A stretch of 64,000 nucleotides of DNA. Source: Sulfurovum sp. GTDB lineage: Bacteria > Campylobacterota > Campylobacteria > Campylobacterales > Sulfurovaceae. A program made the translations under genes and the position numbers. Positions 766-33,973 of the stretch are shown here, piece by piece (position 1 is the stretch's first letter; each line of letters begins with the position of its first letter). A model generated the notes under the pieces. It did no database searches, was not told the DNA's origin, and was given only the letters and a program-made list of their open reading frames with translations. The stretch covers positions 1 through 64,000 of the forward strand of contig JALWTA010000017.1 of NCBI GenBank assembly GCA_027082955.1, in the 5' to 3' direction.

Positions 766-1210
766 GAATTAGGAATTAGGAATTAGGAATTAGGAATTTT
801 GATGAAAAAAGAGAATATTCTGCATACAAAAAGCTATCAGTTTGCTATCAGAATCGTCAATCTGTCACTTTATTTAAATAAAGAAAAAAAAGAATACATC
901 TTAAGCAAACAAGTATTAAGATCGGGTACTTCTATAGGTGCTTTGGTCAGTGAGTCCAAATATGCACAATCAAAAGCTGACTTTCTCAATAAACTGATGA
1001 TTTCACTGAAAGAAGCAAATGAAACACAATACTGGATCAACCTTCTATATGATACACATTTTATTACACCACAAATGCACCAAAGTCTTTTTAGTGACAT
1101 TGATGAAATCATCAGCCTTTTAAGCGCTATAACCAAAACCATCAAAAATCAAAGCATTACAACGTAATGCATACCATCATTCCTAATTCCTCATTCCTAA
1201 CTCCTGATTT
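766..1210 (+). mobile_element. Heptamer-array element carrying a four-helix-bundle gene
   Basis: The left arm (766-797) has four to five copies of GGAATTA. The middle is a complete four-helix-bundle gene. Overlapping its 3' end is the hairpin GCATTAC-AAC-GTAATGC (1154-1170), followed by ATACC and a right arm of inverted heptamers (TTCCTAA, TTCCTCA, TTCCTAA; about 1178-1207). Other loci have the same hairpin as GCATTGC/GCAATGC, so the stem changed in a compensatory way. It lies between a promoter and uvrB. The layout resembles 23S rRNA intervening sequences (an ORF between inverted repeats), but here it is intergenic. Mobility is inferred. Confidence 0.65.
802..1167 (+). CDS. Four-helix-bundle protein (23S-IVS / Avd-like)
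   Basis: This 121-residue all-helical protein carries the family signature RSGTSIGALVSESKYAQSK, then FLNKLMISLKEANETQYW. It belongs to the four-helix-bundle family encoded in 23S rRNA intervening sequences and related to Avd of diversity-generating retroelements; those proteins form pentameric nucleic-acid-binding barrels, but the role of stand-alone members is unclear. I chose ATG 802 because AGGAA inside the heptamer array lies 5 nt upstream; an in-frame TTG at 799 is also possible. The stop codon falls inside the right-end hairpin. A close paralogue lies at 32438-32791, in the same kind of element. Confidence 0.85.
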   Translation: MKKENILHTKSYQFAIRIVNLSLYLNKEKKEYILSKQVLRSGTSIGALVSESKYAQSKADFLNKLMISLKEANETQYWINLLYDTHFITPQMHQSLFSDIDEIISLLSAITKTIKNQSITT

Positions 1211-1225
1211 AACACAAGGAAATAT

Positions 1226-3199
1226 ATGGCAAATTTTACCGTAAAAAGCAATTACGCTCCCGCCGGCGACCAACCCGCCGCCATCACATCACTTGCAGAG
1301 TCCATCAATAAGGGTAACCGCTACCAGACACTGCTTGGCGTAACAGGGTCAGGGAAGACCTACACCATGGCGAAGGTGATCGAAAAGACCCAAAAGCCTA
1401 CGCTGATCATGACACACAACAAGACGCTTGCCGCGCAGCTCTACAGTGAGTTCAAAGCCTTTTTCCCCAATAACCATGTCGAGTACTTCATCAGCTACTA
1501 TGACTACTATCAGCCAGAGGCTTATCTGCCAAGGCAGGATCTTTTCATTGAAAAGGACAGTTCTATCAATCAAGAGCTTGAACGGCTCAGGCTCAGTACT
1601 ACCGCCAGTCTGCTAAGCCACGACGATGTCATCGTCATCGCTTCGGTATCGGCAAACTACGGGTTGGGTAGTCCGGAAGACTACCGCTCCATCGTCCAGA
1701 AACTCTCTGTGGGTGAAGAGTACAACCAAAAAGAACTCCTGCTGCGGCTTGTCGATATGGGATACAAGCGCAATGACGAGTTTTTTGACATTGGGAACTT
1801 TCGTGTCAGTGGTGAAGTGATAGACATCTATCCCGCCTACTCGGACGAGTTTGCCGTTCGCATCGAGTTTTTCGGTGACGAGATAGAGGATATTTATACC
1901 TTCAACTCACTGACTGGAGAGAAAGAGAAGCACATGGAGGAGGTGACCATCTACGCTGCCAACCAGTTCGTGGTGGGCAAAGAGAAGCTCGCGCGCGCCA
2001 TCAAGAGCATTGAAGAGGAGCTGGATGAACGGCTTGCCTTTTTTCAGCGTGAGGGGCGCATGGTGGAGTACAACCGTCTCAAGCAGCGTACCGAGTTTGA
2101 CCTTGAAATGCTTGAAGCCACCGGTATGTGCAAGGGTATCGAAAACTACTCGCGGCACCTCACAGGCAAAAAGCCCGGCGAGACACCCTACTCGATGATG
2201 GACTACTTTGAAGTCATGCATGACGACTACCTTGTCATTGTGGACGAGTCACACGTCTCTTTGCCGCAGTTTCGGGGGATGTACGCCGGTGACCGAAGTC
2301 GTAAAGAGGTGCTGGTAGAGCACGGGTTCAGACTGCCAAGCGCACTGGACAACCGTCCACTGAAGTTTGACGAGTACATCAACAAAGCCCCCCACTACCT
2401 CTTTGTCTCTGCCACCCCTGCCCAGCTCGAGCTTGACCTCTCCGCCACCGTTGCCGAACAGGTTGTCAGACCCACCGGGCTGCTTGACCCCGAAATAGAG
2501 GTGATCGACTCTACCTATCAGGTGGAAAACCTGCATGACCGTATGAAACCGGTCATCGAACGGGGTGAACGGGTGCTTGTCACCGTATTGACAAAAAAAA
2601 TGGCAGAGGAGTTGACAACCTACTACAACGACCTTGGGCTGAAGTGTAAATATATGCACTCCGACCTTGACGCCATCGAACGTAACCAGATCATCCGATC
2701 TTTGAGGCTTGGGGAGTTTGATATTTTAGTTGGGATCAACCTGCTCAGAGAGGGGCTTGACCTGCCCGAAGTCAGTCTTGTAGCCATTTTGGATGCGGAC
2801 AAAGAGGGCTTTTTGCGTTCTGAAACGGCACTTATTCAGACTGCCGGACGTGCCGCACGTAACGCCAACGGCAAGGTACTGATGTATGCCAAAAAGATGA
2901 CCGACTCTATGAAAGCCACCATCGAGATCACACAGGCAAGAAGAGAGAAGCAGATCGCCTACAACAAAAAACACGGCATCACCCCAAAAACAACCATCCG
3001 TGAACTCGACACCAACCTCAAAGTCGAAGACGGCGGTGAACTCTACAACAAACGCAGCAAACTTGACAAAATGCCAAAATCCGAACGCCAGCAGCTTGTC
3101 AAAGAGCTCAAAGCCAAGATGCTTGCAGCAGCCAAAAATCTGGAGTTTGAAGAGGCGGCACGGCTGAGGGATGAGATTGCGAAGATTAAAAAACTATAA
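1226..3199 (+). CDS. uvrB: UvrABC excinuclease subunit B
   Basis: UvrB is the damage-verifying helicase-like subunit of nucleotide excision repair; it is loaded by UvrA and recruits UvrC. The 657 residues are full length for the family. Visible features are Walker A ([15 protein letters not shown], near 39-53), the beta-hairpin that inserts into DNA ([10 protein letters not shown], near 91-100), the DESH Walker B region, SATPAQ, motifs V-VI ([14 protein letters not shown], then QTAGRAARN) and the C-terminal UVR domain ([19 protein letters not shown]). The start has AAGGA 5 nt upstream. A heptamer-array element separates it from its probable promoter, and another begins 10 nt after its stop. 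Confidence 0.98.
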
Positions 3200-3209
3200 C
3201 TTTTTTAAT

Positions 3210-3378
3210 GAAGAGTTAAGAGTGAAGAGTGAAGAGTTTTGGTATGCTTTCTTTACAGAAAGCTTTTATTATTTATTCGAAGATGTAAGGATATTATGAT
3301 GACCCTCTTACCAACACTAAAAGCATTGCAAAGCAATGCAAACCACCACTCTTCACTCTTCACTCTTCACTCTTCACT
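3210..3378. repeat. Heptamer-array element, non-coding, complete
   Basis: This is the clearest complete non-coding copy. Left array 3210-3236 (GAAGAGT units), TTTTGGTATGC, hairpin GCTTTCT-TTAC-AGAAAGC (3246-3263), TTTTAT; about 60 bp of spacer; then AAAGCATTGCAAAGCAATGC (hairpin 3323-3339) and a right array of inverted units (CTCTTCA, 3348-3378). Both outer junctions have inverted duplications: ATTAAAAAA (3185-3193, end of uvrB) is repeated inverted at 3201-3209, and the first bases of ppk are repeated inverted at 3379-3393. Confidence 0.75.
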
Positions 3379-3413
3379 AAATCTACCATTTGGAGCGACC
3401 AAATGGTAGATTT
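3379..3413 (+). promoter_or_regulatory. Hairpin enclosing the ppk ribosome-binding site
   Basis: AAATCTACCATTTGG (3379-3393) pairs perfectly over 15 bp with CCAAATGGTAGATTT (3399-3413), leaving the 5-nt loop AGCGA. The only plausible Shine-Dalgarno of ppk (GGAG, 3392-3395) lies at the stem top and loop, and the ATG (3403-3405) is in the 3' strand. The structure could repress ppk translation unless opened; the pairing is seen, the regulatory effect is inferred. Confidence 0.6.
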
Positions 3414-5487
3414 AAACGATCCCCAGCTCTACTTCAACCGTGAACTCAGCTGGCTGCAGTTCAACTCCCGTGTGCTGGCGCAGGCGCTTGATGAGACACT
3501 GCCGCCGCTGGAACGTTTGAAATTCCTTGCCATCTACGGTACGAACCTCGATGAATTCTACATGATCCGTGTTGCAGGGCTGAAGAGCCTTTTCAAAGCT
3601 CGGGTACAGCAGACAGGACCGGACAAACTCACCCCTGCTGAGCAGTTGAAGCAGATACGTACCTACCTGCACAAAGAGCATGACATTTTGGAGTCGTGCT
3701 ACACCTCTATCATCTCCGAACTGCATACGCATGGAGTGCACATTAAAAACTTTGATACCCTCTCACAAGAAGAGCAGGAAGAGGTGCGAGAGATCTTCTT
3801 TGAAGAGATATACCCTGTCATCATCCCCATTGCCATCGATGCTACCCATCCCTTCCCACACCTGAACAACCTCAGTTTCGCACTGGCGATCACCCTGCAG
3901 GATGAGTCGCAGCACATCAAACACGGGCTGATCCGCATTCCCCGTATTTTGCCGCGATTCGTGCATATAGACCATACCTTCATCCCTATTGAAAGTGTGG
4001 TAGAACACTTCACAACAGAGCTTTTCCCCGGGTTTACTCCACTGGCATCAACCCCTTTCAGGGTGACACGCAATGCCGATATCGAGATCGAGGAAGAGGA
4101 GGCAGATGATTTTCTGGAGATCCTTCAGGAGGGGCTGCGTTCACGCAACAAAGGCTCGCTTATCCGCCTTGAACTGCTTGAAGGGGTCGATGAAGACCTG
4201 CTTCAGTTCCTGCTGACTCACCTGAACCTGAATGAACACGACATCTACCCTTACAAAAGCCTGCCGCTCAACCTCGGGGCACTCTGGCAGATCGTAGGTG
4301 ACAAGCGGCTCTCCCATCTGGTACTGCCCACCTTCACACCCAAGATCCTGCCGCCGTTTGATACCGAAAATGTCTTTGAAGCCATCGAAAAGCAGGATGT
4401 TGTCCTCTACCATCCCTTTGACAGTTTCGAGCCGGTGGTGCAGTTCATCAAGCAGGCAGCTGCCGATGCAGAGACCATCGCTATCCGTATGACGCTCTAC
4501 CGTGCCGGACAGAAATCACCTATTGTCAAAGCACTCATTGATGCGGCACGTGACGGCAAGCAGGTAACGGTACTGGTCGAGCTTAAAGCGAGGTTTGATG
4601 AAGAGAACAACCTCCGCTGGGCAAAAGCGCTTGAAGATGCGGGAGCGCATGTCGTCTACGGCATCCCGGGGCTGAAAGTCCATGCCAAGATCGCACAAGT
4701 CATCAAACGCAAGGGGCGCAAACTGCAAAGCTATGTCCACCTTGCTACCGGGAACTACAACCCAACTACTGCCAAAATCTATACGGATATCTCCTACTTT
4801 ACCGCAAAAGAGGTCATCTCTACCGATGCCACCCACTTTTTCCACTTCCTGACCGGTTTTTCGACCTATACCAAACTGGGTACGCTTTTCATGTCACCTG
4901 TACAGATCAAACCCAAACTGATCAAACTGATAGAGAAAGAGGCACAGCACGGCAAAGAGGGGTACATCATTCTCAAAGCCAATTCACTGGTCGATCAGGA
5001 CATTATCAAGACCTTGTATAAAGCATCACAGAAAGGATGCCGTATTGAGCTGATCATCCGCGGTATCTGCTGTCTTAAACCCGGAGTCAAAGGTGTCAGT
5101 GAAAATATCACTGTCTCTTCGGTGATCGGGAAATACCTTGAACACCCCCGCATCTACTGGTTTAAACACCAGAAGGTCAAGACCTACATCTCCAGTGCCG
5201 ACCTCATGCCACGCAACCTTGTCCGCCGTGTCGAGCTGATGACCCCGATACTCGAGCCCAACCTTTCACAGAAGATCGAGCAGATACTCATGCTGCAGCT
5301 TACAGATAATCAGCTGCGCTGGACGCTCCAGCCAAGCGGTGAGTACATTAAAGTACCTGCGCTGGGCAAGAAGGTCAACAACCATGAGATACTCGAGCAG
5401 TATGTCAACAAGATCCATGACAAAACCAAAAAAGCAACACCGGACTATGTCAGCCGTCTGGCAAACCGGATACTAAAGGAAGGATAA
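3403..5487 (+). CDS. ppk: Polyphosphate kinase 1
   Basis: This enzyme reversibly makes polyphosphate from ATP. The 694 residues match the PPK1 family: an N-terminal domain (NRELSWLQFNSRVL near 12-25), a head domain, and two phospholipase-D-like catalytic domains. The autophosphorylated His is in GLKVHAKIAQV and the second catalytic His in YLEHPRIYWF, followed by ISSADLMPRNLVRRVE. The start matches the family N-terminus (DLNDPQLYFNRELSW) but sits in a 15-bp hairpin created beside a heptamer-array element. A carbonic anhydrase-like gene follows after 3 nt and is probably co-translated. Confidence 0.97.
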   Translation: MVDLNDPQLYFNRELSWLQFNSRVLAQALDETLPPLERLKFLAIYGTNLDEFYMIRVAGLKSLFKARVQQTGPDKLTPAEQLKQIRTYLHKEHDILESCYTSIISELHTHGVHIKNFDTLSQEEQEEVREIFFEEIYPVIIPIAIDATHPFPHLNNLSFALAITLQDESQHIKHGLIRIPRILPRFVHIDHTFIPIESVVEHFTTELFPGFTPLASTPFRVTRNADIEIEEEEADDFLEILQEGLRSRNKGSLIRLELLEGVDEDLLQFLLTHLNLNEHDIYPYKSLPLNLGALWQIVGDKRLSHLVLPTFTPKILPPFDTENVFEAIEKQDVVLYHPFDSFEPVVQFIKQAAADAETIAIRMTLYRAGQKSPIVKALIDAARDGKQVTVLVELKARFDEENNLRWAKALEDAGAHVVYGIPGLKVHAKIAQVIKRKGRKLQSYVHLATGNYNPTTAKIYTDISYFTAKEVISTDATHFFHFLTGFSTYTKLGTLFMSPVQIKPKLIKLIEKEAQHGKEGYIILKANSLVDQDIIKTLYKASQKGCRIELIIRGICCLKPGVKGVSENITVSSVIGKYLEHPRIYWFKHQKVKTYISSADLMPRNLVRRVELMTPILEPNLSQKIEQILMLQLTDNQLRWTLQPSGEYIKVPALGKKVNNHEILEQYVNKIHDKTKKATPDYVSRLANRILKEG

Positions 5488-6015: not shown

Positions 6016-6102
6016 ACAGGTAGCAGGTAGCAGGTAGCAGGTAGCAGGTAGCAGGTAGCAGGTAGCAGGTAGCAGGTAGCAGGTAGCAGGTAGCAGGTAG
6101 CA
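6016..6102. repeat. Tandem array of CAGGTAG, about 12 copies
   Basis: A nearly perfect 7-bp tandem repeat starts at the stop codon of the upstream gene and runs for about 86 bp. It resembles one arm of the heptamer-array elements, but I find no inverted partner or GGTATGC hairpin after it. Its regularity makes copy-number variation between strains likely. Confidence 0.85.
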
Positions 6103-6352: not shown

Positions 6353-7003
6353 ATGAACAAAATCATCACCAAAAGCTTCAAAGACCTCTTTTCCGCCACC
6401 GTTCTGGCATTCATCGCCAAAACCACCCTCATCTCACTGGTACTGACCGCTGCCATCGCATGGCTCTTTGGCAGTACTGTCTCTTCTTTTGTCAAACACT
6501 ATCTGACATGGATTCCGTGGGAGTGGGTACAGACTACCGGCGCATCCGTAGCAGTCATTGCCGTTGCCTATATGCTCTTTGTCGCCATTCATACCGTTGT
6601 CACCTCTTTCATGGTCGAACCGCTGCTGGCAAAACTGGCACAACAACACTACCCAAATTCACCAGTTGTCGGTACACCGAGCATTACAGCATCCCTGCTT
6701 GTAAGCCTTCGCTCAGCCGCTGTATTTCTTTTCGTGTTCCTCTTTACCTTCCCGCTGATGTTCGTACCGCTGCTTGGGGCGGTCTATATGCTCTGGCTCT
6801 GGTCTATTCTTATCAAAGCACCGACTATCTATGATGTAGGCAGTATGTTCATCGCAGATAAAAAAACCCTCAAAGCACGCAGCAGCAAAACCACCCTCCT
6901 TGCCATGATCGCCGCTGGGTTTAACTACATTCCACTGCTCAATATCTTTTCTCCTGTGTTTGCGCAGATTCTGTTTTTGCATAGGATTGTGGGAGAGGAG
7001 TAG
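6353..7003 (+). CDS. EI24-domain inner-membrane protein
   Basis: The 216-residue membrane protein has about four to five hydrophobic segments (near 18-45, 60-85, 120-155 and 185-205). It fits the EI24/CysZ-like family, whose CysZ members are linked to sulfate uptake; nothing here proves that activity. A typical mark is the amphipathic stretch VTSFMVEPLLAKLAQQHYP between membrane segments. The start has AAGGA about 8 nt upstream. It is preceded by REP-like palindromes and its stop codon (TAG) is part of a GTAGGAA heptamer array, so both flanks are repeats. Confidence 0.75.
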   Translation: MNKIITKSFKDLFSATVLAFIAKTTLISLVLTAAIAWLFGSTVSSFVKHYLTWIPWEWVQTTGASVAVIAVAYMLFVAIHTVVTSFMVEPLLAKLAQQHYPNSPVVGTPSITASLLVSLRSAAVFLFVFLFTFPLMFVPLLGAVYMLWLWSILIKAPTIYDVGSMFIADKKTLKARSSKTTLLAMIAAGFNYIPLLNIFSPVFAQILFLHRIVGEE

Positions 7004-7150
7004 GAAGTAGGAAGTAGGAAGTAGGAATGATAACAATGTATGAGCCTATGTCAACCTTAACAAAAATATCTTTTCAAGCCCCCATGCAATAAAAGCATTG
7101 CACAGCAATGCATACCAAAACTCCTACCTACTACCTCCTACCTCCTCACT
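6996..7150. repeat. Heptamer-array element between convergent genes
   Basis: Left array of GTAGGAA units (6996-7028) overlaps the end of the EI24 gene. The right part has ATAAAAGCATTGC-ACA-GCAATGC (hairpin 7095-7111), ATACCAAAA and inverted units (CTCCTAC, CTACCTC). The left GGTATGC hairpin is missing. The right array encodes the last residues of the exonuclease gene on the minus strand. Confidence 0.7.
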
Positions 7151-7924: not shown

Positions 7925-8498
7925 TGGCGATAAAACGCTCTACTTTCGTAGGATCTTTTTTCCCTTTTACCGACTCCACACCGGAGCTGACATCCACACC
8001 GTAAAATCCATAGGCTTTGGCTTCTGCTACATTCTCCGGAGTCAGCCCGCCTGCAAGGATGATCTTGGAGCAGTCAACATCTTTGAACCACTCAAGGTTC
8101 AACCGCTTTCCGCTGCCTCCATAGCTTTCACAATAGGCATCAACCAGACGGTAGCGGTCGGCAAATCGGTGCAGATCTTCCGGTTTTTGCGCCCGTACCA
8201 CAGGCAGGGTTTTGGTATCGACCGCATCGAGAGACTCCGCATCGACATCAAAATGGATCTGCGCCAGAGAGATACCGGTATAACGGCATACGGTGTCGAT
8301 GGTCTCTACCCCCTCATCAACAAAAAGCCCTACCCTCTCTACAAAAGGAGGAAGCTGGTCTATGATATGCTTGGCATCTTTGGGGGTAATATATCTTGGT
8401 GATTTATTGTAAAATACAAATCCAAGCGCATCCGCACCGCATGCAACCGCATGCAACGCATCTCTAAGATTGGTGATACCACATATTTTTACGCGCAC
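7908..8498 (-). CDS. trpF: Phosphoribosylanthranilate isomerase
   Basis: TrpF catalyses the Amadori rearrangement in tryptophan synthesis. The 196-residue TIM barrel starts with the family hallmark MRVKICGITNLRDA (catalytic Cys), continues with GADALGFVFYNKSPRYI, and has the phosphate-binding segments LAGGLTPENV and GVDVSSGVE. The start is GTG (8496-8498) with GGGAG 5 nt upstream. That Shine-Dalgarno is inside a 6-bp hairpin whose other strand abuts a heptamer array. No other trp genes are nearby; it is paired with an exonuclease gene. Confidence 0.96.
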   Translation of the reverse strand: MRVKICGITNLRDALHAVACGADALGFVFYNKSPRYITPKDAKHIIDQLPPFVERVGLFVDEGVETIDTVCRYTGISLAQIHFDVDAESLDAVDTKTLPVVRAQKPEDLHRFADRYRLVDAYCESYGGSGKRLNLEWFKDVDCSKIILAGGLTPENVAEAKAYGFYGVDVSSGVESVKGKKDPTKVERFIANAKSI

Positions 8499-8518: not shown

Positions 8519-8682
8519 AGTGAAGAGTGAAGAGTGAAGAGTGAAGAGTTTTGGTTTGTTTTTCTTACGAAAAACTTCTATTTTAATATGTTTCATATTT
8601 TCTCCTATCTATAATATAAAAGCATTGCACAGCAATGCATACCGACACTATTCACTATTAGTTATTCACTCTTCACTTCAAA
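8516..8682. repeat. Heptamer-array element between rpe and trpF
   Basis: Left array of GTGAAGA units (8518-8549), TTTTGGTTTG, hairpin GTTTTTC-TTAC-GAAAAAC (8558-8575), CTTCTATTTT; spacer; ATAAAAGCATTGC-ACA-GCAATGC (8622-8638), ATACC and degenerate inverted units (TTCACTA, CTTCACT). The outer right junction is the palindrome AAGAGGCG-AT-CGCCTCTT (8681-8698) within the end of rpe. The rpe stop codon is in the right array. Confidence 0.72.
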
Positions 8683-9742: not shown

Positions 9743-10873
9743 ATGACCTCCATAGACAAATTCAAAAAGTTTCTCGGATGGAGAAGCGCACCTAAACCGC
9801 ATATCACCCTCAATGACGAATACTATTCGCACCTAGCACCATTTAGACTTCCATTTATCCTAACTGTTCTCATGATGCTCATTGGGACAATTGGTTACAT
9901 GGTTATTGACCATTTCCCTCTCATGGATGCTATTTACCAGACAGGAATCACATTCACAACTGTCGGTTTCGGAGAAATACGCCCTATTTCGGATATGGGA
10001 CGTATCTTTACCATCACTCTGATCATTTTCGGCTTTATTGTGTTCTCTATTGCCGTAGGGATCATCGCAGAAGTTGTCAAAAAGGGTGAATTCCAAAAAA
10101 CTGCCAAGGAACGGAAAATGCTTTATGAAATAGCCCGGCTGAAACACCACTTTGTTGTCTGTTACCACAATGAATTTACCGTGCAAGTAACCAAACAGCT
10201 CCGCACCAACCATATTCCTTTCGTTGTCGTCGATCCAAGCGAAGACCTTGAAGAGATCGCAAAGAAATACAAATATCCCTACTTTGTCTCTGCCGAACCG
10301 CATACTGAAGAGGGAATTTTGAAATCCCACCTCTCCTCTGCAAAAGGTATCATTACCCTTGCAGACAATGTTGCGGACAACATTGCCACCATCGCATCTG
10401 CACGCCTGTATGAAGGGGAAATAGGACGTATGCGGAAATATCTCATCATCGCCAATGCCAAAAGTTATGAAGATGAAACCAAACTGCTCAAACTCGGTGC
10501 TGACAAAGTGGTAACAGCCACCAAACTCATGGCACAACGTATCAATGCTATGGCTGCACGTCCAGATATGGAGAACCTGCTGCAGGAGTTCCTCTACAAA
10601 AAAGATACACCGCTTGATATGGAGGAGGCAAAAGTTTCCAAAACCTCATGGCTGACACTCAAACAGATCAAAGCGGCACGTTTCCGTGACATTGCCAATG
10701 TGACCATCATTGGTATACGCCAAAAAGACGGCAAGTTCATTCCTATGCCCAAAGGAGATACAATTGTGATGCCTGAATCCAAACTGCTCCTTATTGGTAC
10801 CAGTGATGGTATACGCAAAGCCAAAAAGATCATTCGCAAAAAAGAGAAGCCTGAAGAGCTGAAATACATCTGA
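9743..10873 (+). CDS. Two-TM potassium channel with RCK domain
   Basis: The 376-residue protein has a first membrane helix near 32-53, a pore loop with the selectivity filter TVGFGE (near 73-78), a second helix near 88-112, then a cytoplasmic RCK_N region (near 130-260) and an RCK_C/TrkA_C region (near 295-365). It resembles MthK/Kch-type channels gated by cytoplasmic ligands. The Gly-rich Rossmann loop normally found at the start of RCK_N is replaced by VVCYHNEF, so NAD(H) binding looks lost. The Shine-Dalgarno AGGAGAG lies 17 nt from the ATG and is partly in a small GAGAG/CTCTC hairpin. Confidence 0.9.
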   Translation: MTSIDKFKKFLGWRSAPKPHITLNDEYYSHLAPFRLPFILTVLMMLIGTIGYMVIDHFPLMDAIYQTGITFTTVGFGEIRPISDMGRIFTITLIIFGFIVFSIAVGIIAEVVKKGEFQKTAKERKMLYEIARLKHHFVVCYHNEFTVQVTKQLRTNHIPFVVVDPSEDLEEIAKKYKYPYFVSAEPHTEEGILKSHLSSAKGIITLADNVADNIATIASARLYEGEIGRMRKYLIIANAKSYEDETKLLKLGADKVVTATKLMAQRINAMAARPDMENLLQEFLYKKDTPLDMEEAKVSKTSWLTLKQIKAARFRDIANVTIIGIRQKDGKFIPMPKGDTIVMPESKLLLIGTSDGIRKAKKIIRKKEKPEELKYI

Positions 10874-10875
10874 TT

Positions 10876-11049
10876 AGTGAATAGTTTTGGTATGCCTGTG
10901 ACACTGCGTGTCAAGTGGAGAGTTAAGAGTGAATAGTGAATAGTTTTGGTATGCCTGTGACACTGCGTGTCAAGTGGAGAGTTAAGAGTGAATAGTGAAT
11001 AGTTTTGGTATGCTTTTCATTTGAAATGAAAAGCTTTTATAAATAAAAG
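10876..11049 (+). repeat. Triplicated left end of the heptamer-array element
   Basis: A 59-bp unit repeats: TTTTGGTATGC occurs with AGTTTTGG starting at 10883, 10942 and 11001. The first two copies carry the hairpin TGACAC-TGC-GTGTCA; the third has an 11-bp palindrome arm, GCTTTTCATTT/AAATGAAAAGC (11012-11034), then GCTTTTAT. The junction CTTTTAT-AA-ATAAAAG (11034-11049) includes the argJ Shine-Dalgarno AAAAGG. No right end is visible, so this is a partial, tandemly amplified copy. Confidence 0.75.
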
Positions 11050-29360: not shown

Positions 29361-29556
29361 GAAGCGCTGAGTGTTGAGCGTTGAGTACTGAGAGATTTTA
29401 ACTCACAACCAATATTGTGCTAAAATCACAAAAACATACTATCAAAGAGCAGACAATGAATACCCCATCAATAAAAGCATTGCAAAGCAATGCATACCAT
29501 AACCCTTCACTCTTCACTCTTCACTCTTCACTAACAAAGCAAGACCTTGCTTTGTT
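29361..29556. repeat. Heptamer-array element at the mraY-murD junction
   Basis: A GTTGAGC/GAGTGTT array (29361-29394) follows mraY. ATAAAAGCATTGCAAAGC (hairpin 29477-29493), ATACC and an inverted array (CTTCACT units, 29503-29532) lie inside the murD reading frame. The outer junction is AACAAAGCAA-GACC-TTGCTTTGTT (29533-29556), an inverted duplication of the native murD start region. The left array matches not this right array but the one at 29792-29824, so two insertions may overlap here. Confidence 0.7.
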
Positions 29557-30772
29557 CGGTTACGGACTAACAACAAAGGCAATCGCCAAAAAACTCGGCG
29601 GTGGCTGCACCTTTTTTGACGACAATTGCAAAACACCTTATACTGATGAGATGGGTAACCAGATCTTTCCCTCAGAGATGTTCGACCCTGACAAAAGCAG
29701 CCTTGAGATAACCACCCCAAGCCTTCCCCCAAAACACCCGCTAATCCAACAAGCCAAAAACCTCATGAGCGAATATGACTATTTTCTTTCCCCTGAACGC
29801 TCAACGCTGAACACTGAACACTCCAAACCGTTCACGGTTTGGATAAGCGGCACCAATGGCAAAACAACCACCACCCAAATGCTCACCCATCTGCTCAAAG
29901 ACCGTGGTGCGGTAAGCGGCGGCAACATCGGTACCCCTTTGGCAGAACTTGACCCCAAAGCCCCTGTCTGGGTGCTAGAGACAAGTTCTTTTACACTCCA
30001 CCACACCCGTACTGCTTCACCAGATATCTATCTGCTGCTGCCTATTACACCAGACCATCTCGACTGGCACGGTACACCGGAAGCCTATGCCGCAGACAAA
30101 CTGCGTCCGCTGCTTACCATGCGAGAGGGAGAGCTCGCACTTGTACCCAAAGGGCTTGACCTCCCCAAAACCGATGCCTATGTAGTTGAGTACGACAGCA
30201 ATGCATCTCTCTGTAACTATTTCGGTCTGGATCAGACAAAACTCAATTACAAAGGTGCTTTTTTGCAGGATGCACTGCTTGCACTGGCTGTCACAAAAGT
30301 GCTTTTTGATGTAACAGACTACGATCTTCTTAACCACTTTGAACGTGATGCGCACCGACAGGAGGAGCTTACCGATACTAAGGAACGGCTCTGGGTCAAC
30401 GACTCCAAAGCCACCAACCTCGATGCGGCAATACAGGCGGTTAAAACCTATGCCCATACCCCCATCCACCTTATCCTCGGCGGCGATGACAAAGGGGTTG
30501 ACCTTACCCCGCTTTTTGAGACTATCGTACCCCTGAACATCACCCTCTACAGCATCGGTGCAAACAGTGAAAAAATAAAAGCCCTCTCAGAACGTTTTGG
30601 TATTAATCTAAAAGAGGCAGGTACACTCGAGCGTGCCGTAGCTATGATCGACAAAGTCCATACCGACAACAGCACCGCCCTTCTCTCTCCCGCTGCGGCA
30701 AGTTTCGACCAGTTCAACTCCTACAAGCACCGGGGAGAGACCTTTGTTTCACTTGTAAAAGCACTTTCCTAA
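29456..30772 (+). CDS. murD: UDP-N-acetylmuramoylalanine-D-glutamate ligase with repeat-derived N-terminus
   Basis: MurD adds D-Glu to UDP-MurNAc-Ala. The 438 residues include the N-terminal Rossmann region beginning LALFGYGLTTKAIAK, the P-loop SGTNGKTTTTQML, the central ligase region and a C-terminal domain (HLILGGDDKGVDLTPL). Residues 1-32 (including [13 protein letters not shown]) are translated from a heptamer-array element; the native protein probably began near LALFGYG. A further short segment (ERSTLNTEHSKPF) just before the ATP domain also comes from an array. ATG 29456 is preferred over GTG 29417, which overlaps a probable -10 (TAAAAT). Confidence 0.9.
   Translation: MNTPSIKALQSNAYHNPSLFTLHSSLTKQDLALFGYGLTTKAIAKKLGGGCTFFDDNCKTPYTDEMGNQIFPSEMFDPDKSSLEITTPSLPPKHPLIQQAKNLMSEYDYFLSPERSTLNTEHSKPFTVWISGTNGKTTTTQMLTHLLKDRGAVSGGNIGTPLAELDPKAPVWVLETSSFTLHHTRTASPDIYLLLPITPDHLDWHGTPEAYAADKLRPLLTMREGELALVPKGLDLPKTDAYVVEYDSNASLCNYFGLDQTKLNYKGAFLQDALLALAVTKVLFDVTDYDLLNHFERDAHRQEELTDTKERLWVNDSKATNLDAAIQAVKTYAHTPIHLILGGDDKGVDLTPLFETIVPLNITLYSIGANSEKIKALSERFGINLKEAGTLERAVAMIDKVHTDNSTALLSPAAASFDQFNSYKHRGETFVSLVKALS
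29792..29842. repeat. Heptamer array inside murD
   Basis: The in-frame array CTGAACG CTCAACG CTGAACA CTGAACA (29793-29820) is the inverse of the array after mraY (29361-29394). It is followed at once by the perfect hairpin CCAAACCG-TTCA-CGGTTTGG (29823-29842), whose 3' half encodes native FTVW residues. Confidence 0.65.
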
Positions 30773-31106: not shown

Positions 31107-32435
31107 ATGTCAAAAAAACTCCACCTTGTCAGCCTCGGCTGCACCAAAAACCTCGTTGACTCCGAAGTGATGCTCGGCAGACTTCAGGAGTACGAGATCA
31201 CCGACGACAACACCGAAGCGGATGTCATTATCGTCAACACCTGTGGCTTTATCGATGCTGCCAAAGAGGAGAGTATCAATACTGTCCTAAACCTCCACGA
31301 TGAACGGAAAAAAGACTCTGTACTGGTCATGGCAGGATGCCTCTCGGAGCGCTACAAAGAGGAGCTGATGCAGGAGCTTCCAGAGATCGACATCTTCACC
31401 GGTGTAGGCGACTACGAAAAGATCGATGCGCTTATCGCCAAAAAGCAGAGTACCTTCTCCCCGGAAGTCTATCTCGCTACCGAAGAGAGTGGCAGGGTCA
31501 TCACAGGATCGAACTACCATGCCTACATCAAGATCGCTGAGGGCTGCAACCAGCAGTGCAGCTTCTGTGCGATCCCAAGTTTCAAGGGCAAACTCCATTC
31601 TCGTAGCCTCGAGTCGATCGTCAAAGAGGTGCGTATGCTGGCGGAGAGGGGTTTCTATGACTTCTCTTTCATCTCACAGGACAGCTCCAGCTACGGACGC
31701 GATATAGGGCTCAAAGACGGTCTGCGTGACCTCATCAAAGCAGTTGAATCCATCGATGGTGTCAAAAGTGCGCGTATCCTCTACCTCTATCCAAGTACGA
31801 CAAGTTTTGCACTCATCGATGATATCGCCGACTCCAAGATCTTTCAAACCTACTACGATATGCCCATCCAGCACATCGATGACTGTGTCCTCAAGACGAT
31901 GAAGCGGGGCTTTGGAGAAGAGAAGACCATCGCCCTGCTTGAACATATGAAGAGTAAACCTGATGCCTTCATCCGTACCTCTGTCATCGCCGGGCATCCT
32001 GGAGAGAGTGAAGAGAGCTTTGCCAAACTTTGTGACTTCATGGAAAACTTCGGCTTTGACCGCTTCAATGTCTTCGCCTACTCCAACGAAGAGACAACAG
32101 CTGCCTACACCATGGAGCAGCTGCCGCCAGAAGTGATCGAAAGCAGAGCCCAGATCCTGGGCAAAATCGCAGAAAAGACCACAAAAACCTCGCTTGAAAA
32201 GATGGTCGGCAAAACCGTTACCCTCGTCATCGACGGCGAAAGCGACGAACACGAGTTCCTCCTCTCCGCACGTCCGCTGCAATGGGCAGTAGACATCGAC
32301 GGAGAAGTGCTTGTCAACGATACCAACGACCTTCCTGTGGTGTATGGTAAGCTGTATAAGGCAAAGATCACTGAGTTGATAGGTAATCAATTGCTTGCCA
32401 CCCTGATTAGTGAGGAAGTAGGAAGTAGGAAGTAG
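31107..32435 (+). CDS. rimO: Ribosomal protein uS12 methylthiotransferase
   Basis: RimO is a radical-SAM enzyme that methylthiolates an Asp of ribosomal protein S12. The 442 residues comprise the MTTase domain (HLVSLGCTKNLVDSEVMLG, with Cys ligands also in NTCGFIDAAKEES and AGCLSERY), the radical-SAM motif EGCNQQCSFCAIPSFKG, and a C-terminal TRAM domain. LGCTKNLVDSE distinguishes it from MiaB. The final residues EEVGSRK are encoded by a GTAGGAA array, so the native C-terminus was probably shorter. The four-helix-bundle gene starts 3 nt after the stop. Confidence 0.96.
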   Translation: MSKKLHLVSLGCTKNLVDSEVMLGRLQEYEITDDNTEADVIIVNTCGFIDAAKEESINTVLNLHDERKKDSVLVMAGCLSERYKEELMQELPEIDIFTGVGDYEKIDALIAKKQSTFSPEVYLATEESGRVITGSNYHAYIKIAEGCNQQCSFCAIPSFKGKLHSRSLESIVKEVRMLAERGFYDFSFISQDSSSYGRDIGLKDGLRDLIKAVESIDGVKSARILYLYPSTTSFALIDDIADSKIFQTYYDMPIQHIDDCVLKTMKRGFGEEKTIALLEHMKSKPDAFIRTSVIAGHPGESEESFAKLCDFMENFGFDRFNVFAYSNEETTAAYTMEQLPPEVIESRAQILGKIAEKTTKTSLEKMVGKTVTLVIDGESDEHEFLLSARPLQWAVDIDGEVLVNDTNDLPVVYGKLYKAKITELIGNQLLATLISEEVGSRK

Positions 32436-32834
32436 GAGTGAAAGAGAGTGTTTTATTGGAAAAGAGTTTGGCTTTTGCATTACGTATTATCAAACTCTCT
32501 CGTTATCTACAACAAGAGCATAAAGAGTATATTTTATCTAAACAGGTAGTCCGTAGCGGAACAGCTATTGGAGCACTCATTCGAGAAGCACAATACGCAC
32601 AATCTAAGGCAGATTTTCTTAGCAAACTTACTATTGCACTTAAAGAAGCCAATGAAACAAAATATTGGCTAACAATATTGGTAGAATCATCATATATTAC
32701 GCAAACGATGTATCAAAGTATTGAACCTGATGCTGAAGAACTCCTAAAACTGCTTATTGCAAGTACAAAAACATTAAAACAAGGGGAGTAGTCCATGCTC
32801 ACACTCCTACCTCCTACCTCCTACCTCCTACCTA
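32411..32834 (+). mobile_element. Second heptamer-array element with a four-helix-bundle gene
   Basis: Left array of GTAGGAA units (32411-32440), a complete four-helix-bundle gene, then an inverted array (CTCCTAC, CTCCTAC, CTCCTAC; 32800-32834). The GCATTGC hairpin of other copies is not seen. The element joins rimO and tilS into one run: its left array encodes the RimO tail, and its right array encodes the TilS N-terminus. Mobility is inferred from the shared architecture with 766-1210. Confidence 0.65.
32438..32791 (+). CDS. Four-helix-bundle protein, second copy
   Basis: This 117-residue protein is closely similar to the one at 802-1167: both have KEYILSKQV, RSGT-IGAL, YAQSKADFL and LKEANET-YW in the same order. 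It belongs to the 23S-IVS/Avd-like four-helix-bundle family. The start is a GTG (32438) inside the heptamer array, with AGGA from the array 7 nt before it. Its last codons (AAGGGGAG) form the Shine-Dalgarno of tilS, which starts 3 nt after its stop, so tilS translation depends on the element. Confidence 0.85.
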   Translation: MKESVLLEKSLAFALRIIKLSRYLQQEHKEYILSKQVVRSGTAIGALIREAQYAQSKADFLSKLTIALKEANETKYWLTILVESSYITQTMYQSIEPDAEELLKLLIASTKTLKQGE

Positions 32835-33790
32835 AAAAGAATCTCCTCGCTTTCTCCGCCGGTATCGACTCCTCTGCCCTCTTTTTCCTTCTTTTGGAAA
32901 ATAACATCACATTCGACATCGCTATTGTCGATTATGGCACAAGGGCTCAAAGCAAAGCGGAGGTAGCGCATGCCAAGGCGTTGGCAGCACAATACAACCT
33001 CACCTGCCATACCGCAACAGCACCTCAGTTTACCTCACACTTCGAACAGCAGGCACGAACGTTTCGCTATGATTTTTTCGAGTCACTCATACAACAACAC
33101 GGCTATGACACCCTGCTCACTGCCCATCAGCTCAATGATCAACTGGAATGGTTTTTGATGCGTCTAAGTAAAGGAGCGGGAGTGAGCGAACTTGTAGGAC
33201 TGGAACCTGTCACAGACAAGGGGTACTACACACTGCTGCGTCCGCTGCTTGAACATACCAAAGCAGAGCTGCTCGAGTATCTTGAATCAAACGGTTACCC
33301 CTATTTTGTCGATGAAAGCAACAGTAAGGAGAAGTATGAACGCAACCGCTTCAGAAAAGCCTTTTCTGATCCGCTTCTTAAAGACTACAGCGAAGGAATA
33401 CGCCGAAGTTTCAACTATCTCAGAGAAGAGAAAAAAAGACTTGAAGCAGACTATGAAGTAATCACAAAGATAAAATCACTAAGCATCATCAAGCTACACA
33501 ACATCCAAGCCAAAAGCAAAGCGGCAGATGTCACACTCAAGCAACTTGGCTATCTCCTCTCTGCCGCACAAAGAGAGGAGATTGACAAGGAAGACTCACT
33601 GGTGATCGGCGGCAAATGGGCAGTGGCGTATCAAGAGGGGCTTCTCTACATCGCCCCCTACCTCACTACCGATATGCCCAAAGCATTCAAAGAGCGATGC
33701 AGAACAAACAAAATACCGTCAAAAATAAGACCCTATCTCTTCGAAGCAGAGATCAATCCGGAAAAAATACACCAATTAAACCATCCGTAG
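32795..33790 (+). CDS. tilS: tRNA(Ile)-lysidine synthase with repeat-derived N-terminus
   Basis: TilS puts lysidine at C34 of tRNA-Ile(CAU), an essential decoding step. The 331 residues include the ATP PP-loop (FSAGIDSSALFFLL), then AIVDYGTRAQSKAEVAHAKAL, a HQLNDQLEWFLMRL region and TLLRPLLEHTKAELLEYLE. It is short, as usual in this phylum, without the long C-terminal domains. The first 13 residues (MLTLLPPTSYLLP) are the translated inverted heptamer array; native sequence resumes at KKNLLAFSAG. The stop codon starts a REP-like repeat. Confidence 0.93.
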   Translation: MLTLLPPTSYLLPKKNLLAFSAGIDSSALFFLLLENNITFDIAIVDYGTRAQSKAEVAHAKALAAQYNLTCHTATAPQFTSHFEQQARTFRYDFFESLIQQHGYDTLLTAHQLNDQLEWFLMRLSKGAGVSELVGLEPVTDKGYYTLLRPLLEHTKAELLEYLESNGYPYFVDESNSKEKYERNRFRKAFSDPLLKDYSEGIRRSFNYLREEKKRLEADYEVITKIKSLSIIKLHNIQAKSKAADVTLKQLGYLLSAAQREEIDKEDSLVIGGKWAVAYQEGLLYIAPYLTTDMPKAFKERCRTNKIPSKIRPYLFEAEINPEKIHQLNHP

Positions 33791-33973
33791 GGTGTTATCC
33801 CCCGACAACACCGGAACATCAAACGGGAAAAACGCCACAATAAACCCAAGGCACACTCAAAATATTTGGATAAATGCGTAGGGTGCGAAATCTCGCACCT
33901 TCATACCATTGTCAAGAAATAACGATTGTTTCTATTTTATACGTTTCAAAGGTGCGTGGGCTACGCACCCTAC
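33787..33973. repeat. REP-like GTAGGGTG palindromes
   Basis: Three units share GTAGGGTG followed by a stem: GGTGTTATC-CCCC-GACAACACC (33791-33812), GGTGCGA-AATC-TCGCACC (33882-33899) and the inverted GGTGCGT-GGGCT-ACGCACC with CCTAC (33951-33973). The last two form a head-to-head pair. A fourth unit is at 42376-42402. The space between tilS and the Xer gene (about 200 bp) holds only these and an array. Confidence 0.7.

Follow-up and report, generated by a model that had tools for sequence, protein, structure and literature searches.

Predicted translational relays in S23-associated elements with paired hairpin ends between operon genes of Sulfurovum

Elements with inverted, hairpin-bearing ends recur between genes in the window (the whole 64,000-nucleotide stretch of Sulfurovum sp. 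DNA analysed here) and elsewhere in the same genome. From their sequence features, we consider it probable, though well short of certain, that they represent an S23/IVS-related element (IVSs being the rRNA intervening sequences from which the S23 protein is known) with short MITE-like derivatives that sits between operon genes and acts as a translational relay. The element is built from one B end and one A end in inverted orientation, each with a hairpin that is conserved in structure and, outward of it, about four heptamer units; the full-length form, of about 445 bp, also carries S23.

The junction between uvrB and ppk (3209-3378) holds two such inverted ends, each made of a heptamer array, GGTAT or GGTTT, a 7-bp hairpin and TTTTA. 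The left end (3241-3269) reads GGTATGCTTTCT-TTAC-AGAAAGCTTTTAT, the right end, on the minus strand (3344-3318), reads GGTTTGCATTGC-TTT-GCAATGCTTTTAG, and inverted heptamer arrays border both (3209-3237 and 3347-3378). The names uvrB and ppk come from Pfam; the remaining gene names are our reading of the sequence. The features of this element and its junctions (3186-3414) are as follows.

3186-3208, plus strand: hairpin over the stop codon of uvrB (TTAAAAAA-CTATAAC-TTTTTTAA), external to the left array (RNA fold; palindrome shuffle p ≤ 0.05)
3209-3237, plus strand: left heptamer array, units TGAAGAG/TTAAGAG, with stop codons on this strand (repeat scan, sequence)
3241-3269, plus strand: type B end, with GGTAT, stem GCTTTCT-TTAC-AGAAAGC (3246-3263) and TTTTAT (sequence, covariance model)
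3296-3409, plus strand: predicted leader ORF of 37 aa, across the A hairpin, the right array and the ppk start hairpin (sequence)
3318-3344, minus strand: type A end, with GGTTT, stem GCATTGC-TTT-GCAATGC (3323-3339) and TTTTAG (sequence, covariance model)
3347-3378, plus strand: right heptamer array (CACTCTT)n, inverse of the left array and stop-free on the plus strand
3378-3414, plus strand: 16-bp hairpin around the ppk start codon (TAAATCTACCATTTGG-AGCGA-CCAAATGGTAGATTTA) (palindrome; fold z -9.2)

The leader ORF ends in a TAG (3407-3409) that overlaps the ppk start (ATG at 3403). The hairpin around this start (z -9.2 for a fold of 3379-3415) is missing from relatives without the element, and in genomes G100 and G102 it has other letters with the pairing restored. 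When 3186-3420 is folded as a whole, the structure comprises the stop hairpin, a long array stem that closes both end hairpins, and the start hairpin (MFE -94.7, z -13.4). A search of the window against Rfam returned just two tRNAs, and the end hairpins match no family in it. An earlier note on this DNA had described both ends as sharing GGTATGC, a hairpin and TTTTAT; this layout is present at 3236-3357, with the exception that the right end carries GGTTT and TTTTAG and so does not match those words exactly. All four stems that the note quoted were located (3246-3263, 8558-8575, 3323-3339 and 1154-1170), and the change from GCATTGC to GCATTAC is, as it had claimed, matched on the partner arm (GCATTGC/GCAATGC at 3323-3339, GCATTAC/GTAATGC at 1154-1170).

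A covariance model (R1), trained on 11 ends and used at a cut-off of E ≤ 0.1, identified 76 ends in the 2.1-Mb genome to which the window belongs (G000). All stem cells of the training ends are paired (77 of 77), and four of the seven pairs vary on both sides. Among 130 ends from other genomes, in an alignment fitted to the model, 98.9% of stem cells are paired and both-side changes occur in 138 cells, versus 49 in shuffles. The 80 loci drawn from other genomes are the top of one ranked list from an end scan of 150 family genomes; some are orthologous to sites in G000, and they are not mutually independent. As that scan scored 43 candidates per genome, its end counts are lower bounds.

Pooled covariation is inflated by the presence of two end types, part of it being a single old difference between A and B, and pairing was therefore counted within each type in a fixed register. 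Type A ends have a GCATTGC stem, with a 3-nt loop in 100 of 102 cases, and type B ends a GCTTTTC stem with loops of 3-5 nt. Against shuffles, which leave relatedness among ends in place, 709 of 714 type A cells are paired versus 668 (sd 2), with 12 distinct perfect stems, and 710 of 728 type B cells versus 646 (sd 3.6), with 13. At one orthologous site, the copies carry GCTTTTC, GCTTTCT or a longer 9-bp variant, all paired, and the copy in G014 is partly unpaired. Covariation of the stems, which the earlier note had raised for testing with a covariance model, thus holds within each type, and the original observation is confirmed in a stronger form than first put.

One A and one B end make up 37 of the 39 two-ended elements (the other two were typed BB). 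Along the direction of transcription, B precedes A in 25 of 27 co-directional A/B elements (8 of 10 in G000 and 17 of 17 elsewhere); the order is reversed at 8519-8677 and C38:17318, among others. Many R1 ends stand single. GGTAT or GGTTT lies immediately 5' of the stem in 182 of 206 ends. No enrichment between co-directional genes was seen (59 of 73 in G000 and 93 of 116 in other genomes, versus a background of 45 of 59). Gene starts and orientations in these figures come from our own codon-usage gene caller, and the palindrome search and shuffles are likewise our own. Elsewhere in the window, related features are found at these positions.

766-798, plus strand: left array (GAATTAG)n of the S23 element (repeat scan)
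802-1167, plus strand: S23 / 23S_rRNA_IVP gene, ORF from TTG at 799, its TAA overlapping the next ATG (PF05635, E 4.9e-25)
1154-1175, minus strand: type A end of the S23 element, stem GCATTAC-GTT-GTAATGC (sequence, covariance model)
1167-1244, plus strand: predicted leader ORF opening on the S23 stop (TAATG) and running through the array into the uvrB start (1226)
1179-1209, plus strand: right array (ATTCCTA)n of the S23 element (repeat scan)
6999-7146, minus strand: element bounded by a type A end (7095-7116) and, on the opposite side, a heptamer array
8519-8677, minus strand: second element with two ends (B stem at 8558-8575, A stem at 8622-8638), between genes that are co-directional on the minus strand
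10871-11046, plus strand: type B end, with array and GGTATGC segment head-to-tail at a 59-bp period
29456-29532, plus strand: type A end (stem 29477-29493) with array; leader ORF from 29456
32413-32833, plus strand: second S23 copy (32438-32791), enclosed by inverted heptamer arrays and lacking subterminal hairpins

The S23 protein encoded at 802-1167 matches PDB 2rld (E 8e-36), and the leader ORF of the second two-ended element (8596-8489) overlaps a downstream start at 8498. A promoter-like site, TTGACA-16-TATCAT, precedes the heptamer array of the element at 6999-7146. The same arrangement, TTGACA-spacer-TATCAT directly before a (TACTTCC)n-type array and opposite an A end, was seen at four sites (6999-7146 on the minus strand, L044, L056 and L073), and transcripts from such sites would begin in the array. 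Several other arrangements were observed. The repeated 59-bp unit at 10871-11013 holds an array, GGTATGC and a different hairpin (CTGTGACACTGCGTGTCA). The leader of the A end at 29456-30772 shares its reading frame with the gene that follows, and the element may thereby lengthen the protein. A perfect (CAGGTAG)12 array without a hairpin end lies just 3' of a gene stop at 6017-6102, and 70-75-bp elements in G000 pair unlike heptamers, GAATGAG-like on one side and GTGAAGA-like on the other. REP-like GTAGGGTGCGTAGTCACGCACC and GTAGGGTGTTGTCCCC...ACAACACC palindromes are abundant (33786-33973, 42376 and many other loci) and often adjoin elements.

To describe the ends relative to transcription, we classed them by the direction of the flanking genes as entry ends, in which the array precedes the hairpin, or exit ends, in which the hairpin is followed by the array and then the next gene. 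An ATG frame runs through hairpin and array at all 18 exit ends of G000 and at 41 of 43 in other genomes, versus 13 of 41 and 15 of 50, respectively, when entry ends are read in the same way on the strand that is not transcribed (P 3e-7 and 2e-11). The leader stop falls at -3 to +6 of the next predicted start in 12 of 18 cases in G000 and 24 of 41 elsewhere; for stops of the remaining two frames, the counts are 0 of 22 and 4 of 59. Leader and gene most often join by a stop-start overlap of four bases, ATGA for example (offset +3); the overlap with the next start may in part descend from a gene pair that already overlapped in an ancestor. Accepting any in-frame ATG 5' of the hairpin, a 5-base Shine-Dalgarno match precedes the leader ATG at 10 of 18 exit ends in G000 and 21 of 41 elsewhere (random interior positions: ~10%). 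These frames and overlaps, like the end structures and the strand asymmetry, are read directly from the DNA. A conserved leader peptide was considered and rejected: the leaders differ in frame, and the peptide itself is therefore unlikely to matter. As a separate observation on ends in G000, the upstream array can itself provide the ATG and Shine-Dalgarno letters of the leader.

A palindrome (shuffle p ≤ 0.05) lies directly outside the array at 38 of 76 ends in G000 and 68 of 127 (out of 130) in other genomes; in windows further out, the counts are 7 of 76 and 8 of 125. Exit ends carry such junction hairpins in 16 of 18 cases in G000 and 31 of 43 elsewhere, and these lie over the Shine-Dalgarno region or start of the next gene in 14 of the 16 and 22 of the 31. 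At the presumed ispG-dnaB junction, G149 has an empty site with a TGATG gene overlap, and six species have a filled one; the filled sites differ in their heptamers and show four different start hairpins, of which the 5-bp hairpin of G110 has a fold no more stable than shuffles (z -0.3). Comparison by eye of the empty G149 site with filled ones, at this one site, revealed no clear target-site duplication. At one orthologous end, the heptamer of the array itself also changes.

In the relay that we propose, the upstream array would provide stop codons in all frames, and ribosomes would load on the leader inside the element or arrive from S23. Leader ribosomes would then melt the start hairpin over the Shine-Dalgarno region or start codon of the next gene and hand over to that gene by termination-reinitiation, with hairpins and arrays working mainly in RNA. 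A portable relay of this kind would allow the element to persist in operons. For spread, the likeliest trans factor would be S23 or a host system acting with S23. We infer that the leader is translated, that it is coupled to the gene after it and that S23 takes part in movement.

The link to S23 comes from both element structure and distribution. G000 has eight S23 (PF05635) genes, all eight lying, by eye, between inverted heptamer arrays and two of them, at 802-1167 of the window and on C27, having GGTAT hairpin ends. The C27 element is 447 bp long with both ends present, in the order B end, S23, A end, and two-ended elements of S23 size (443-450 bp) also occur in other genomes; mini forms of 73-160 bp have the same ends as the 443-450-bp forms and are without S23. 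Across the 150 family genomes, ends were found in 52, S23 in 84 and Y1_Tnp in 114. S23 is present in 45 of the 52 genomes with ends versus 39 of the 98 without (OR 9.7, P 2e-8, Spearman 0.63, no phylogenetic correction), and the association is also seen inside the genus (53 listed members, P 0.0014, again uncorrected for phylogeny). Ends occur with no S23 match in seven genomes, among them G108 with 25 ends in a fragmented assembly. S23 genes also lie directly upstream of uvrB in G104, G110 and G118, which suggests an old shared insertion.

We also scanned named genomes with five of the eight S23 proteins of G000, an alignment of all eight being too divergent. This yielded 80 loci in Campylobacterota (many of them Sulfurovum), Bacteroidota, Chloroflexota, Gammaproteobacteria, Planctomycetes, Acidobacteria and other groups. 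Period-7 arrays lie upstream at 60 of these loci, downstream at 64 (one being a run of N) and on both sides at 53, and the last count is still 53 of 80 when N runs are penalised; control windows have them in 15 of 415 cases, and periods 5, 6 and 8-11 occur at no more than 4 of 80 loci per side. Where both arrays are present, they are an exact inverted match at 47 of 53 loci and match with at most one mismatch at 51 of 53, versus 9.5% and 38% between loci. At 16 of 69 loci, a frame that opens with ATG near the S23 stop closes exactly on the start of the following gene, where 0.29 would be expected from displaced starts (10 loci without a same-strand downstream gene and one without a readable stop were excluded). 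With wider tolerance, the count is 17 of 69, including loci in Gammaproteobacteria, Bacteroides and a Chloroflexi bin. These data raise the possibility, which we put at somewhat below an even chance, of a phylum-spanning class of S23 mobile elements in which inverted variable heptamer arrays and start-codon hairpins form a built-in relay, and of which the rRNA IVSs would be one branch.

The earlier note had likened the subterminal hairpins to single-strand transposition ends or to protein-binding RNA structures. On the former reading, they would be IS200/IS605- or REP-type ends that a Y1 HUH transposase (TnpA/RAYT) recognises when the DNA is single-stranded, and the short elements would be REPIN-like. 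The inverted pairing of the hairpins, the REPIN-like layout and three Y1_Tnp matches in G000 are in keeping with this, but the three Y1 loci have no R1 end within 1.5 kb, and the stem is preceded by GGTAT or GGTTT as counted above, not by the GTAG (or CGTC) tag of REPs. Nor do the ends follow the enzyme across the 150 genomes: Y1_Tnp is present in 39 of 52 genomes with ends and 75 of 98 without (OR 0.92, P 0.84, Spearman 0.008, no phylogenetic correction), and eight genomes, one of them listed as 100% complete, have at least five ends yet no Y1_Tnp match at E ≤ 0.001. The RAYT-like gene on C29, the only one whose flanks were closely read, has inverted ends of its own, GGGGTCAGGTGATAATGATAAC. 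As this reading also leaves the translation- and strand-linked features unexplained, and as the ends track S23 and not Y1 transposases, single-strand transposition is not supported and we judge it very unlikely, although a HUH enzyme may have been active in the past. The other half of the earlier suggestion, at the level of RNA, is supported, the support coming from translation-linked features and not from protein-RNA contact. The ends of the C29 gene, GGGGTCAG..., resemble the GGGGWSAS-bearing TIRs of TIRtrons in the portion of the source available (PMC3733652), and at about 3000-4250 of L092 (C29) this gene is accompanied by a second copy of its 3' part past a run of N. A reverse transcriptase route was set aside, G000 having no RVT_1 match.

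Two further explanations place the hairpins in RNA. If the inverted arrays paired as a long RNA stem that RNase III cut, as in an IVS, the messages of the two genes would separate and the hairpins would shield the new ends. The ~34-bp array stem closing both hairpins in the 3186-3420 fold (z -13.4), the matching arrays at 47 of 53 S23 loci and the heptamers, 28-bp stem and RNase III excision reported for the Coxiella IVS, in the part of that account available, all favour such processing. In hairpin-ended elements, however, array identity is 0.74 versus 0.77 for random pairs (28 of 39 elements), which argues that the array stem is not generally maintained there; the 73-75-bp forms have mismatched arrays, many ends are single, and a translated leader would open the stem. 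We regard processing as the explanation of these elements as unlikely, and it can coexist with the relay. A slimmer chance still attaches to the ends being intrinsic terminators or attenuators, in which a hairpin and T-run lie 3' of the upstream gene and the leader frames are by-products. A pattern scan did score hairpin and T-run as terminator-like at 3246, 11012, 1170, 3339, 7111 and 8638, and B ends are in terminator orientation in 28 of 31 (G000) and 38 of 48 (other genomes) co-directional cases. Against this, terminator-like sites number 15 versus 10.7 (sd 3.1) in shuffles, the stems are AT-rich, A ends face the opposite way at least as often (15 of 28 in G000, 33 of 45 elsewhere), and leader frames, start overlaps and start hairpins are not accounted for. 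The translational relay, which we favour, may operate together with terminator-like behaviour of the ends and with cleavage of matched arrays by RNase III.

S23 proteins and IVSs are still without an assigned function in the available part of the literature on them (PMC4990558), and a tie to dispersed intercistronic elements offers a testable role in expression with many natural replicates. If the relay is real, it would show how a mobile element can sit in housekeeping operons such as uvrB-ppk without breaking them, and it could account for the variable heptamer arrays beside S23 (four-helix-bundle) genes. It would also be a mobile element with its own translation-coupling cassette, a kind that we did not find described in the open-licence literature. 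That literature likewise yielded no description of S23 genes between inverted heptamer arrays outside rRNA; both searches are weak evidence of absence.

Short heptamer arrays adjoin start codons in the STRR of cyanobacteria. The TAACTGA heptamer direct repeats of Beggiatoaceae are similar in forming short arrays beside start codons, but these two families are mostly direct repeats of one heptamer, and S23 or paired hairpin ends are not described for them in the portion of the source available (PMC4679880). GTAG REP/RAYT systems and TIRtrons also have short hairpin-bearing repeats that are often inversely paired, as far as the accessible text describes them (PMC3733652); the elements here differ in having no GTAG/CGTC tag directly before the stem and no association with Y1 transposases. 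The rRNA IVSs of Coxiella and Leptospira share an S23-family ORF, heptamer repeats and a terminal inverted stem, and the length of 428-444 nt given for Coxiella compares with 443-450 bp here (PMC4990558, available part). In contrast to these IVSs, the S23 copies in G000 and the other elements lie between protein genes, in many copies per genome and in an assembly with no LSU rRNA match, and they add subterminal GGTAT hairpins, S23-less mini forms and leader ORFs predicted to be coupled to the next gene. MITEs found in transcripts (ERIC, Correia/NEMIS, YPAL and RPE) are, in the sections available, 100-200-bp intergenic repeats with inverted ends and stable RNA folds, some of them cut by RNase III and some with ORFs fused to their neighbours (PMC2229807, PMC10969869). 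Unlike these, the elements described here have varying heptamer arrays, two distinct ends with a preferred order along transcription, ORFs that end on the downstream start codon, and a full-length form that carries S23.
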